Positions 8,422 through 32,700 of a stretch of 36,460 nt of DNA are shown piece by piece (position 1 is the stretch's first letter; the number at the start of each line of letters is the position of its first letter). A model generated the notes under the pieces. The model worked only from the letters and a program-made list of their open reading frames with translations. It was not told where the DNA came from and did no database searches. This DNA comes from a virus, in IMG/VR virus record IMGVR_UViG_3300008459_000155, positions 1-36,460 of that record; one strand, given 5' to 3'. The translations under genes and the position numbers were made by a program.

Positions 8422-9048
8422 ATGAAATACGAGTCAACCAACAACAAAATCAATGAAAGAATTCAAGAAATATCGCAAATTTTATTAACTAAAGAAAACT
8501 CAGAAAGAGAACGTAATGAGCTTGCGACGCTAATTTATCCAAAATTAAAGTATTATATCTGGAAGTTCTGTAAGAACGAGATCGATACTGAGGAGGCACT
8601 ACAGTGGACCCTCAAAAAGATCTTTAAGAACATAGCACAGTTTGACTTTGAAAAGGGTAGATTTACCACTTGGATCTACACCATCGCTAGAAACGAGACC
8701 CTATATTACCTACATCTTCAGAAAAAGCACAGCCACTATGATATCGACGTTATGTACGCTAAAGTCGATCGCGAAGATGACTTCCTTGATCCGAACCACT
8801 CTCACACCGACATTGATGATCTCTATAACACAACGGTTGATGAGATCTATCTCATAGAGGATCCTCTCCTAAAAAACATTGCTATCGATAAGATGATCAA
8901 GAATAAGAAGGTCAGACAGATCGCAATCGACTATGAGATCAACGAAAATACAGTCAAGACAAAACTTAGAAAGATAAGACTTGACATAAAAAATTCAGTG
9001 ATTCAAAAGAATCCTCACCTAGTCGAAAAAATAAAATCGATGTTATGA
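8422..9048 (+). CDS. Phage RNA polymerase sigma factor, ECF-like (candidate late sigma)
   Basis: 208 residues. Region 2 spans about 37-101: [24 protein letters not shown], then [11 protein letters not shown]. These are the hallmark -10-binding and core-binding helices of sigma-70 group 4 factors. Region 4, about 150-192, contains the helix-turn-helix [20 protein letters not shown] that reads the -35 region or contacts an activator. The linker (102-148) is acidic and His-rich. The length resembles T4 gp55 (185 aa), the late sigma factor, but the sequence looks more like a cellular ECF factor. It is the natural candidate to read the recurrent GATAAATA elements. Its stop overlaps the next start by 4 bases (ATGA). 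Confidence 0.85.
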
Positions 9049-21128: not shown

Positions 21129-21929
21129 ATGGATACTCGAATCGATTTTAAGACAGCTCAAAAATTCAATCAAATAGAACTCATTGATTGGAAGACGAGA
21201 TACGCGGACTTTCAGTTCTACATTAGAAAAGGGCTAAATGAGATACAGTACAATGTGAGTACGAATGTCTCAAAGAGCCCAAAGAGTGGGGAATACATCA
21301 AGCCGCTAACCTCAGCTGCATACGGTCCTGAAATGGACGTGAATGCAGTCTTCAATCAAGAGGATACTTGGTTGGACGTTGGAGGCCATATCGGACTCTT
21401 TGCAGTAAGAATGGCAAAGCAATTTCCTAGGATAAAAAAGATCTTAGCATATGAAGCGTTGCCACATAATGCTTCCTTTGCGATCGAGAACATCGCGATC
21501 AACAACGTTGGAGCAGAGTGTGAAGTGGTCCAAAAGGCAATAGTCCCAGGAAATGAAGAGACTATTGACTTCTTCATCTCAACTGATTCTGGAAAACACT
21601 CTATACTTCCGATCAGAGGAAGGGAAGTGATGCACCTTCCTGCAATAAACATTAACGATGCTATCGCTAATCATGGAGCGACTGCCATCAAGATGGACGT
21701 TGAGGGTGCTGAGTATGAACTGATCAAGGCAGTCACTGACTGGTCAAATATCAGAGTCTTTATCGTTGAATATCACTTCATGTACAAGCCTCTTAAAGCA
21801 AATCGCGTACAAAAGTTTCAAGAGATAATTTCCATACTTGAGAACAACTTTGACGTTGTGAGAAAGATTGATGCAGTGGAATATGGAAAGAATTTTATCA
21901 CTCACGTAGTGGCGATCAAAAATGATTAA
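21129..21929 (+). CDS. FkbM-type SAM-dependent methyltransferase
   Basis: 266 residues. Motif I is LDVGGHIGLF at 82-91 (SAM-binding Gly-rich loop), the acidic post-strand residue is in A-Y-E-A near 107-110, and the family hallmark I-K-M-D-V-E-G-A-E spans 187-195. FkbM family enzymes typically methylate hydroxyls on sugars or polyketides. The gene is followed, with 8 bases of overlap, by a DNA glycosylase and then by a glycosyltransferase, which suggests a joint role in nucleotide or glycan modification. The substrate cannot be told from the sequence. Confidence 0.85.
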   Translation: MDTRIDFKTAQKFNQIELIDWKTRYADFQFYIRKGLNEIQYNVSTNVSKSPKSGEYIKPLTSAAYGPEMDVNAVFNQEDTWLDVGGHIGLFAVRMAKQFPRIKKILAYEALPHNASFAIENIAINNVGAECEVVQKAIVPGNEETIDFFISTDSGKHSILPIRGREVMHLPAININDAIANHGATAIKMDVEGAEYELIKAVTDWSNIRVFIVEYHFMYKPLKANRVQKFQEIISILENNFDVVRKIDAVEYGKNFITHVVAIKND

Positions 21930-22347
21930 GCAAGTAAGCCCCTACCTGCTTCTTCAAGAGATCTACAACGAGCACCCATGGCGGGTGCTCGTTTGTTGTA
22001 TCATGTTAAACTGTACCTCCAGAAAGCAAGTAGACAGGGTAAGAGACGAATTCTTTAAGAGATATCCGGATCCGTCAGAAGCGGAAAGAGCCGATCTTAA
22101 TGAGATGGCTGAGCTCCTGGCGCCATTGGGCTTTAGGAACCGTCGTACAAACACCATCAAACGCTTCTCAAGTGACTGGCTCACACTCAATTGGCAAGAA
22201 CCTAAAGAACTATATGGAATAGGCAAGTATGCGCAGGACTCATGGGAGATCTTTATGAAGGGCAACCTTGAGGTGAATCCAACTGATGGAGTCCTAGCAA
22301 AATACTTGGCTTGGGCCAGAACCCAAGCTGAAAATCCAGTAAAATAA
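21922..22347 (+). CDS. MBD4-like HhH-GPD DNA glycosylase
   Basis: 141 residues, about the size of the MBD4 catalytic core. It has P-W-R-V-L-V-C-C-I-M-L-N-C-T-S at 19-33, L-L-A-P-L-G-F-R-N-R-R near 65-75, the helix-hairpin-helix L-Y-G-I-G-K-Y at 97-103, and V-N-P-T-D-G-V-L-A-K-Y at 118-128. Asp122 sits where MBD4 has its catalytic Asp. The string of matches (N-x-T-S, F-S-x-x-W/Y-L-T, E-L-Y/H-G-I-G-K-Y, H/N-P-x-D) is very close to MBD4 as I know it. MBD4 removes T or U from mismatches with G. It lacks the iron-sulphur Cys cluster of endonuclease III. It overlaps the methyltransferase by 8 bases and contains a strong hairpin at 21967-21993. Confidence 0.85.
   Translation: MIKQVSPYLLLQEIYNEHPWRVLVCCIMLNCTSRKQVDRVRDEFFKRYPDPSEAERADLNEMAELLAPLGFRNRRTNTIKRFSSDWLTLNWQEPKELYGIGKYAQDSWEIFMKGNLEVNPTDGVLAKYLAWARTQAENPVK
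21967..21993 (+). other. Perfect 11-bp hairpin inside the glycosylase coding region
   Basis: AACGAGCACCC (21967-21977) and GGGTGCTCGTT (21983-21993) are exact reverse complements separated by five bases (ATGGC), followed by TTTGTTGT-like sequence. It lies in codons 16-24 of the glycosylase gene. The stem is GC-rich for this genome. It could slow ribosomes or polymerase, or control the operon. The T-stretch is too short for a confident intrinsic terminator. Confidence 0.6.
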
Positions 22348-22350
22348 GAT

Positions 22351-23421
22351 ATGAAAGCATTATACGCGTATTTTGGTCTACTTGATCTACATGACATTGA
22401 TTCTCCCGGACACAGCCTCTATCAGATAGGGCTGGTCGATTCAATAAAAGAGACTTTTAATTGTGAAAAATTCGATTTTTACAGTTATTATCCAGACGAT
22501 GTAATTAAGTCGGCTAAACTAAGTGGTTTCCCAGACACTCCATTAGGTAGGCTTTTTGCTGGATATCGAGCTGACCTCTTTGATTCTCCGATTCATCGAA
22601 TAGAAACTGTTGTTGAGGATATTAAGTCAATCAAATATTCTAAGCTTTTCTTAAAGGCTAGATTTAGAAACCTTTCCACTCTAGCTAAAAAATGGAAGGA
22701 CGCTAGAGACTTTGAAATAATCATTCAGACTGCAATTGATAGCGGATACTCTAAAGAACAGATCGTCATCTTGGACACTGATCTCTCCCTACCTGATTCC
22801 TTCTTTGAAAAATTTTCACATAAAGTCACAATATCTGTTCCATCGATAGACTTTCCAGGAATATCTAACAGGTTCTTAAAGGAGTGTGTTGAGATAAACT
22901 TAGCGACTAAGGACTATTCTAGTCATGTGAGCGTCTTTTATGGAAATATCGATACTTCCAAGTACAAGGCAGGAAACTCAAAGAATGCTATTCTTGGCGA
23001 AGTGATAGATTGGATTGAATCGAATAACGACGCAAGATCGACATTAGCTTTGATCTGTAAAGCATCAGATTATTCAGGCCATGAGAAAACTGCAGCACAC
23101 GTTCCAAGAAACGATAGAGCAGGCATATGGGAGATGCTCGAGATCTCAACCTTAATGATAAACGTGACTAAAGACAAGTATGATACTGCTCAATTCATTC
23201 CGGCAAGAGTCTTTGAAGCCATGATCTTTGGGATGATCCCAGTATCCTACAAGTTTGAGTTCTTATGTAAGACTTTTTCTTTTGATAACTTAGATGATTT
23301 TATTGAGATCTATAAATACTTGAAAGAGTGTGATGACACAGGTTTGAAGCAAGCGTACGTTCACTTCGTGGATAACTATGTTAATTATGTAGACCGCTTA
23401 CATGAAAAAGTCATAAATTAA
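22351..23421 (+). CDS. Glycosyltransferase, GT-B-like fold
   Basis: 356 residues. The C-terminal nucleotide-sugar site shows IPARVFEAMIFGMIPVSY at 283-300, the pattern [IS]-P-x-R-[VI]-F-E-A-x-x-x-G-x-[IV]-P-V of GT4/CgeB-like enzymes. An acidic/hydrophobic N-terminal half gives the other Rossmann domain (starting MKALYAYFG). It starts 3 bases after the glycosylase stop. Possible substrates include modified DNA bases (as in T-even phages), virion proteins or host glycans. Nothing here separates these. There is no hydroxymethylase in the window. Confidence 0.75.
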   Translation: MKALYAYFGLLDLHDIDSPGHSLYQIGLVDSIKETFNCEKFDFYSYYPDDVIKSAKLSGFPDTPLGRLFAGYRADLFDSPIHRIETVVEDIKSIKYSKLFLKARFRNLSTLAKKWKDARDFEIIIQTAIDSGYSKEQIVILDTDLSLPDSFFEKFSHKVTISVPSIDFPGISNRFLKECVEINLATKDYSSHVSVFYGNIDTSKYKAGNSKNAILGEVIDWIESNNDARSTLALICKASDYSGHEKTAAHVPRNDRAGIWEMLEISTLMINVTKDKYDTAQFIPARVFEAMIFGMIPVSYKFEFLCKTFSFDNLDDFIEIYKYLKECDDTGLKQAYVHFVDNYVNYVDRLHEKVIN

Positions 23422-31395: not shown

Positions 31396-32700
31396 ATGCA
31401 CCACACAGAAGATTTTAAGGAACTTAGAGAGTTCGTTGACGAGATGAACTCGTCAAACTCAACCAACCACAAGGTAGAGATTCTTACTAAGTATCAATAT
31501 CATCCCTTCATCAAAAGGGTACTGTTTTATACATATCAGCCTTACTGGAATTTTGGAGTAACTTCTACCAATCTTAAGAAGAGAAGCGATCTTATTGCAC
31601 CGAAAGAAGTATATGATGACTTATTCTTGATGCTAGACGACTTTAATGAGCGTCACATGACTGGACATGCAGCAATTCAGGCAGCAAACCGATTCATTAA
31701 GGATTATGAGGAGTGGGCGGACCTGATCTATCAGATAATCGACAGAAACCTTGAGACCAGAGCGACAGTTACTCTAATAAATCGAGTGAATCCAAAATTC
31801 ATTCCTACTTTTGAGGTCGCTTTAGCTCACGATGCGGCAAAGGTAAAGGGCATAGATCTATTCGATCGATCGTGGTACCTTTCTAGAAAGTTGGATGGAG
31901 TTCGTTGCATCTGCATGGTGCATGGAGACTCAGTAAGGTTCTTTTCACGTAACGGCAAGGAGTTTCACACGCTAGGAAAAGTAGCGGACGAAATAAGACG
32001 CCTGGGGATCACAGACGTAGTCTTTGACGGAGAAATATGTCTCATGAATGAAGATGGCTCAGATGACTTCCAGGGAATCCTGAAGCAGATCCAACGTAAG
32101 GATCACACCATAGAGAATCCAAAGTATTGGATATTTGATATACTTGAACATGCTGAGTTCGCAGGTGAAGAATCTTCAGTTCTCTTTTCAATGAGAATAG
32201 AGTGGAGACCCTCTCAGTTCAACGATTTTAAAGGTTCTGAGATCTTGGAGTTACTTCCACAGATAAAGATAATCGATGAGGATTCCTTTGATGAGATGAA
32301 GAGTCAGTCTAAGGACTTTAATTGGGAAGGGCTCATCGCTAGAAAGGACGCTCCATACAAATTTGGCAGGTCTAAGGACATGTTAAAGATCAAGGAGTTT
32401 TTCGACGCAGAATATGTGGTCACTGGTGCAATAATCGGCCCACAGCGAGTGATAGTCGACGGCAAAGAAGTTGAGGAGCAGATGCTAAGCGCAGTAACAA
32501 TCGACCATAAGGGTTCACAGGTACAAGTCGGAAGCGGATTCACACTAGACGAGAGAAGACACTATTATCGAAACGGTGGAGAGATCATGGAAGCTACTAT
32601 AACTGTGCAGTATTTTGAAGAAACGACTGACCAGCATGGCAACCACTCACTAAGATTTCCAGTCTTTAAAGCAAACCATGGAAAAAAGCGCGAAGTCTAA
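31396..32700 (+). CDS. ATP-dependent DNA ligase
   Basis: 434 residues. Motif I is KLDGVR with adenylated Lys165 (165-170), motif III DGEICLMN at 211-218, motif IV EGLIARK at 311-317 and motif V MLKIKEF at 329-335 with Lys331/Lys333. Residues 1-120 form a helical N-terminal domain, as in T4 gp30 (487 aa), and the OB-fold follows motif V. It seals nicks during replication, repair and recombination. It has a Shine-Dalgarno-like AGGA upstream, unusual in this window. A following separate promoter suggests independent control. Confidence 0.97.
   Translation: MHHTEDFKELREFVDEMNSSNSTNHKVEILTKYQYHPFIKRVLFYTYQPYWNFGVTSTNLKKRSDLIAPKEVYDDLFLMLDDFNERHMTGHAAIQAANRFIKDYEEWADLIYQIIDRNLETRATVTLINRVNPKFIPTFEVALAHDAAKVKGIDLFDRSWYLSRKLDGVRCICMVHGDSVRFFSRNGKEFHTLGKVADEIRRLGITDVVFDGEICLMNEDGSDDFQGILKQIQRKDHTIENPKYWIFDILEHAEFAGEESSVLFSMRIEWRPSQFNDFKGSEILELLPQIKIIDEDSFDEMKSQSKDFNWEGLIARKDAPYKFGRSKDMLKIKEFFDAEYVVTGAIIGPQRVIVDGKEVEEQMLSAVTIDHKGSQVQVGSGFTLDERRHYYRNGGEIMEATITVQYFEETTDQHGNHSLRFPVFKANHGKKREV

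Follow-up and report, generated by a model that had tools for sequence, protein, structure and literature searches.

MBD4 of animals and plants excises the wrong base from T:G and U:G pairs, and is viewed as the protector of methylated CpG in eukaryotes. Its Tyr540 presumably occupies the place of the Lys of lyases, and replacement of this Lys by Tyr yields a monofunctional glycosylase. Archaeal MIG (PDB 1kea), a thymine glycosylase according to its title, is likewise an HhH-GPD protein and has an extra Fe-S part. Residues Arg468 and Leu508 of MBD4 intercalate DNA, and Asp560 or a water attacks, according to excerpts of one study (PMC5406665). Arabidopsis has a G-specific uracil glycosylase, MBD4L, and a beta,delta AP lyase of the Fpg family, FPG, encoded by separate genes, and its FPG prefers AP sites opposite C (PMC8395712). 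In a search of open-access journal papers we found no description of a phage MBD4. One apparent report was rejected, as the letters in the matching passage belong to an accession number (PMC9294509). The passages retrieved from a metagenome paper mention methyl-CpG-binding proteins in general terms only (PMC10140301), and those on phage S-CREM1 describe a different enzyme, a pyrimidine-dimer glycosylase (PMC9964418).

The DNA analysed here, called the window, is an IMG/VR virus contig of 36,460 bases that is classed as linear and also has terminase, baseplate wedge and sigma-factor matches. One of its ORFs encodes what is, judging by sequence and modelled structure, an MBD4-type HhH-GPD glycosylase (Table 1). 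The initial annotation described this protein as a bare catalytic core, and the ORF indeed has exactly the predicted extent and comprises the glycosylase domain only, with no N-terminal methyl-CpG-binding domain.

Table 1. Features of the window discussed in the text
Feature	Position	Strand	Remarks
Sigma-70 region 2 protein (phage sigma factor)	8422-9048	+	PF04542, 9e-12
FkbM-type methyltransferase	21129-21929	+	PF05050, 6.8e-11; overlaps glycosylase start by 8 bp
Predicted MBD4-like HhH-GPD DNA glycosylase	21922-22347	+	ATG start, 141 aa
Antisense open frame	21963-22397	-	144 aa; overlaps glycosylase gene
Unknown-function protein	22351-23421	+	356 aa; downstream flank of accessory site
ATP-dependent DNA ligase	31396-32700	+	PF01068, 5.7e-18
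Thymidylate synthase, truncated by contig end	35948-36460	+	PF00303, 5.6e-42; PHROG 160

The motifs on which the initial annotation based its comparison with MBD4 are all present in the protein, namely P19-W-x-x-L-V, L29-N-C-T-S33, A67-P-L-G70, L97-Y-G-I-G-K-Y103 and P120-T-D122, with Asp122 in the catalytic position. Its three Cys residues are at positions 25, 26 and 31, so the C-terminal Fe-S cluster motif of endonuclease III, MIG and MutY is absent, also as proposed. The HhH-GPD family of Pfam (PF00730) matches at 4.2e-6, which is over the curated cut-off, and at E-values up to 1 the only other Pfam match is a sub-threshold DUF. In phmmer comparisons with the PDB, 15 MBD4 sequences match residues 6-132 with E-values of 7e-28 to 2e-25 (best catalytic domain, 6.6e-28), whereas endonuclease III and MIG match no better than 0.012-0.013. 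The NCBIfam Nth and MutY models score far under their own cut-offs (27.1 bits against 211.7 for nth), and the best PHROG has an E-value of 0.015. The protein is 40-42% identical to the catalytic domain of animal MBD4 (approximately residues 438-575 in human), with which it shares the fold, the Asp, the Tyr, the GIGKY sequence and the lack of an Fe-S cluster. Unlike animal MBD4, it lacks a methyl-CpG-binding domain, has Cys for Arg468 and Phe for Leu508, and is encoded by a virus.

An AlphaFold2 model built from 58 locus-derived alignment rows (mean pLDDT 96.6, pTM 0.90) has the HhH-GPD fold, whose absence had been named beforehand as grounds for abandoning the proposal. The top 16 Foldseek matches in the PDB are all MBD4 (TM-score by query 0.87-0.92, rmsd 1.1-1.4), and the next is MIG, with a TM-score of 0.62. 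VIA-align Z-scores are 21.7-22.4 for MBD4, 14.4 for MIG and 13.8 for Nth, and MIG, Nth and MutY all fit the model much less well than MBD4 does. By sequence and by structure, the closest solved relatives are MBD4 and not enzymes of the MutY or Nth type, the other outcome that would have told against the initial annotation. The one close structural match in BFVD, a 245-aa insect granulovirus protein (U5KBB0), has the same predicted fold (TM-score 0.89, 34% identity), so MBD4-like domains appear to occur in a eukaryotic virus too.

Alignments and aligned residue ranges, with an offset of 437, or 438 past a one-residue insertion, map Cys31, Phe71, Tyr103 and Asp122 of the window protein to Arg468, Leu508, Tyr540 and Asp560 of human MBD4. 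Among 95 aligned viral proteins, a set that includes the window protein and retains near-duplicates, Asp122, Tyr103, Asn30, Thr32, Gly99 and Gly101 never vary. Gln occupies position 31 in 38 of these proteins, Leu in 34, Cys in 22, Met in one and Arg in none; on a tree of 88 dereplicated rows this position has changed 12 times or more. Since the intercalating Arg468 is replaced, we call the protein MBD4-like and not MBD4, and it may recognise the opposite base in another way than MBD4 does. HhH-GPD-derived enzymes may serve in thymine hypermodification, and the alteration of the wedge residue in all phage members might be taken to mean that the protein has lost excision activity and is now a binding factor or part of a base-modifying pathway. 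We regard this as very improbable, given the catalytic Asp in all 95 proteins, the lack of any further Pfam family beyond the sub-threshold DUF, and the linkage of the gene to an AP-lyase-type enzyme described below.

The glycosylase gene is under purifying selection, because pN is well under pS in comparisons with six relatives (0.08-0.25 versus 0.49-0.77), and third codon positions vary most. Antisense frames comparable to that in Table 1 are present at seven loci of the window phage group, and the 144-aa frame is most plausibly a by-product.

The family proved to be wide, which, like the Arg468-to-Cys change and the Fpg/Nei partner, goes beyond the initial annotation. A scan of IMG/VR with the window protein returned 20 loci, and a profile scan confirmed at least 567 relatives, of which 80 were kept. 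In GenBank, 8 of 50,697 phage records match, representing five phages, three of them present twice; these are Xanthomonas, Stenotrophomonas and Janthinobacterium phages and cyanophage S-TIM54. The MBD4-like glycosylase is common in viral contigs and frequent in aquatic phages. Public labels on four of the five GenBank homologues ("hypothetical protein", "ENDO3c" or "endonuclease III") can be corrected accordingly, and this large family offers small stand-alone enzymes for work on the mechanism of the MBD4 core.

A bacterial origin of the gene was considered and rejected. A search of the genome collection for the exact motif, a demand that undercounts cellular copies, found six loci; by eye and from shared clusters, five of these lie among phage-type genes. 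Surveys of two phyla by profile matched 1 of 398 and 1 of 396 bacterial genomes (794 together, in a selection exclusive of Bacteroidota and archaea), and each match was the survey centre itself; family members score 134-155 bits, and other HhH matches at most 48. On plasmids only partial matches were found, with 0 of 85 covering 80% of the protein, and the named ones are of the Nth/MutY type. The sixth locus of the motif search, in Candidatus Actinomarina (L097:5959-6348, + strand), has chromosome-like surroundings by eye and possibly reflects phage-to-host transfer.

The relationship between the phage and eukaryotic domains was addressed with a tree of phage rows, mouse MBD4 as the sole eukaryotic sequence, and six outgroup sequences of the Nth/MutY type. 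A test of all phage rows as one clade gave p-AU 0.327, and neither nesting of MBD4 within the phage sequences nor the reverse is shown. The row nearest mouse MBD4 is a marine phage homologue (L073), with 53% identity over 128 residues, compared with 44% for the window protein. With this phage family, the question of where the eukaryotic domain came from can be put to the test.

In the window phage group the glycosylase gene is a dispensable accessory insert. Of 27 loci examined in the group, 25 have both the FkbM gene and the gene for the 356-aa protein; the glycosylase gene sits between them in 19 of the 25 and is absent from that site in the other six (L371, L372, L374, L375, L377 and L383), where the 356-aa-type gene directly follows FkbM. 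Although a constant neighbour, FkbM is probably not functionally linked to the glycosylase. The 356-aa protein has no significant Pfam match and no PHROG or PDB match.

What is new here is that many phages have, beside the glycosylase gene or elsewhere on the same record, a gene for a zincless AP-lyase-type enzyme of the Fpg/Nei family. When neighbours at 101 loci were clustered, a gene of the Fpg/Nei type emerged as adjacent to the glycosylase gene. Such a gene is within the flank of 26 of the 95 viral loci, always on the same strand and in 17 cases at a distance of approximately 50 bp or less; it is downstream of the glycosylase gene in 22 and upstream in four. The two gene orders do not mix on the tree, where L065/L084 stand apart from the rest, and presence in the flank requires at least six changes over 52 dereplicated rows, eight of these rows being positive. 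When the search started from Fpg/Nei, 44 of the best 80 of 300 loci had the glycosylase gene within approximately 8 kb, again always on the same strand, and 23 of these 44 had it within 250 bp, most of them with genes that overlap by 4 bp; among the other 36, two had it in a more distant part of the record. A further set was collected by way of ribonucleotide reductase and comprised the 50 of 80 loci with the longest contigs; two of its glycosylase matches are partial. Both genes were found in 12 of these records, the glycosylase gene alone in 10, Fpg/Nei alone in four and neither in 24 (Fisher p 0.005). All these association counts ignore relatedness and contain near-duplicates, and some records recur between sets.

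In the longest 50 of the 95 loci, searched as whole records, Fpg/Nei was found in 23 and not found in 27, many of which are fragments. None was seen within the 36-kb window, which is itself a fragment. Among close relatives of the window phage the longest is a 207-kb record (G002, locus L002), whose glycosylase is 81% identical to that of the window and which has an Fpg/Nei gene approximately 99 kb from the glycosylase gene. The two that follow in length (131 and 91 kb) have neither Fpg/Nei nor a hydroxymethylase-like gene, but they may end before that region, and if gene order is as in the 207-kb record these absences would carry little weight.

In 15 aligned partners P2, E3, K60 and the finger residue R257 are invariant, and the last 50 residues contain at most one Cys in every case, so the zinc-finger cysteines are absent. 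The best PDB match is 3a45 (2e-42), which we take to be mimivirus Nei1, compared with 2e-27 for bacterial Fpg. The partner thus resembles the viral and NEIL1-type zincless enzymes; unlike them, it is encoded by phages and its gene overlaps an MBD4-like gene in many loci. The Fpg/Nei protein of the 207-kb relative, a T4-like phage record (L264:6252-7040, - strand), is NEIL1-like, with E-values of 5e-48 to human NEIL1 and only 9e-12 to bacterial Fpg. At one locus (L171:7560-8801, + strand) the glycosylase frame continues into Fpg/Nei as an open frame of 414 codons. Fpg requires a free N-terminal Pro, and for this reason we rejected a fusion protein and read the frame as a lost stop codon or a sequence error, with an internal start.

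Pairing of a glycosylase with an Fpg/Nei enzyme has eukaryotic precedent in Arabidopsis MBD4L and FPG and in human NEIL1 and TDG; for phages, the open papers searched yielded no account of it. Excerpts of one study state that NEIL1 processes abasic sites left by the monofunctional TDG in vitro, and that it gave no stimulation of TDG on a T/G mismatch (PMC5566547). The Arabidopsis parallel is an analogy only, because its FPG prefers AP sites opposite C. Animal MBD4 differs from the phage family in this respect, since the phage proteins are often paired with Fpg/Nei, as well as in the replacement of Arg468 by Gln, Leu, Cys or Met.

The family, fold, catalytic residues and selection described above, with the operon-type Fpg/Nei linkage in relatives, make it quite probable that the phage produces a monofunctional MBD4-type glycosylase that removes uracil, thymine or a 5-substituted uracil opposite G. 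Deamination of cytosine or modified cytosine in phage DNA would generate these bases, and the enzyme would flip the base into its pocket, where Asp122 and a water would hydrolyse the bond to leave an abasic site. This site would pass to the Fpg/Nei lyase or to a host AP endonuclease; the co-encoded zincless enzyme of many relatives would open it by beta,delta-elimination, and a polymerase and a ligase would complete the repair. The ATP-dependent ligase of the window could seal the repaired nick. Activity, substrate and sequence of steps are inferred, as is the presence of the partner in the window phage itself. UDG-superfamily enzymes are nearly absent from the records with a glycosylase (1 of 50 whole records), and the MBD4-like protein could therefore stand in for them. 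Three observations count against this reading: Arg468 is replaced, the gene is dispensable, and Fpg/Nei is present in fewer than half of the 50 records. The findings suggest that base excision repair specific for mismatches is something with which some phages equip themselves.

A narrower reading is that the glycosylase is dedicated to phages whose DNA contains 5hmC or 5mC, where deamination would give 5hmU:G or T:G pairs that uracil-specific enzymes miss and that an MBD4-like enzyme would excise. The initial annotation had suggested repair of deaminated modified cytosines, and in part the genomes bear this out. Asp in place of Asn177 of E. coli thymidylate synthase marks dCMP use and modified-cytosine contigs, according to passages of PMC8670742. 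A thymidylate-synthase-family protein with Asp at this position is present in 16 of the 50 glycosylase records, all 16 matches having Asp and one being weak, although this uniformity is partly a result of selection because the query was itself a hydroxymethylase. Among the 16 are the 207-kb relative and three Bradleyvirinae-type phages (L022-L024). In all three of the latter, the glycosylase gene clusters with genes for a pyrophosphohydrolase, the Asp177 enzyme (two genes downstream of the glycosylase) and dCMP deaminase; their genes labelled or placed as thymidylate synthase bear Asp177 and more likely encode dCMP-modifying enzymes. In the 207-kb relative, a dCMP deaminase gene (PHROG 174) adjoins one for a family member with Asp at ThyA position 177, a predicted dCMP hydroxymethylase that in the PDB is closest to T4 dCMP hydroxymethylase (4e-20) and CMP hydroxymethylase, with thymidylate synthase at 2e-11. 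The same record has a separate, ordinary thymidylate synthase with Asn at 177 (L265:4154-5278), and because this is the homologue of the truncated window protein, the latter would appear to be an ordinary ThyA that supplies dTMP. Titles of PDB entries also include MBD4 structures with 5hmU:G.

Other counts run against dedication to modified cytosine. In the reductase-drawn set, a hydroxymethylase-like gene is present in 3 of 22 records with the glycosylase and 3 of 28 without it (one borderline match, G916, with E 8e-6 and a broken frame, is omitted from this count), and with no association in this control a tight link between the two genes was rejected. Only 16 of the best 80 of 266 hydroxymethylase loci have the glycosylase gene within the flank, most marine glycosylase records lack a hydroxymethylase-like gene, and a 176-kb record of the window group has a hydroxymethylase (L341) yet an empty glycosylase site (L374, under the same contig name). 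Methyltransferase-linked repair of deaminated 5mC is the pattern of MIG and Vsr. As a C5-cytosine methyltransferase (PF00145) was found in only 2 of the 50 glycosylase records, deaminated 5mC produced by such an enzyme was rejected as a general cause. Dedication to modified cytosine is therefore possible in our estimation but doubtful. Less likely still is a broader proposal, that aquatic phages carry a complete eukaryote-like module, an MBD4-type glycosylase coupled to, or on the same genome as, a zincless lyase of the NEIL1/mimivirus-Nei1 type, tuned to 5hmU:G or T:G for modified-cytosine genomes, and that the eukaryotic MBD4 domain, elsewhere almost lacking in prokaryotes, has its nearest living relatives, and perhaps its source, in this viral pool.

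The initial annotation also raised the idea that the enzyme attacks host or rival-phage DNA, for which nothing was found in support. An antiviral glycosylase is known in the bacterial protein Brig1, which acts on T4 DNA but belongs, in the same excerpts, to the uracil-glycosylase superfamily and not to the HhH enzymes (PMC11078745). The position of the glycosylase gene as an accessory insert among structural genes in the window group would also fit an offensive role. The active-site residues are of the mismatch-enzyme type, however, a PADLOC search gave only a weak match (E 0.003), and the usual neighbours, named by eye, form a setting of repair and nucleotide metabolism (AP lyase, dUTPase-like protein, ribonucleotide reductase and thymidylate synthases). 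Damage to foreign DNA is accordingly a most improbable role, and base excision repair of phage DNA remains our preferred reading.

A gene at L265:13797-15530 (+ strand) encodes a 577-aa protein with a DFSGSM stretch, which we take to resemble a Ro60/TROVE-type protein.
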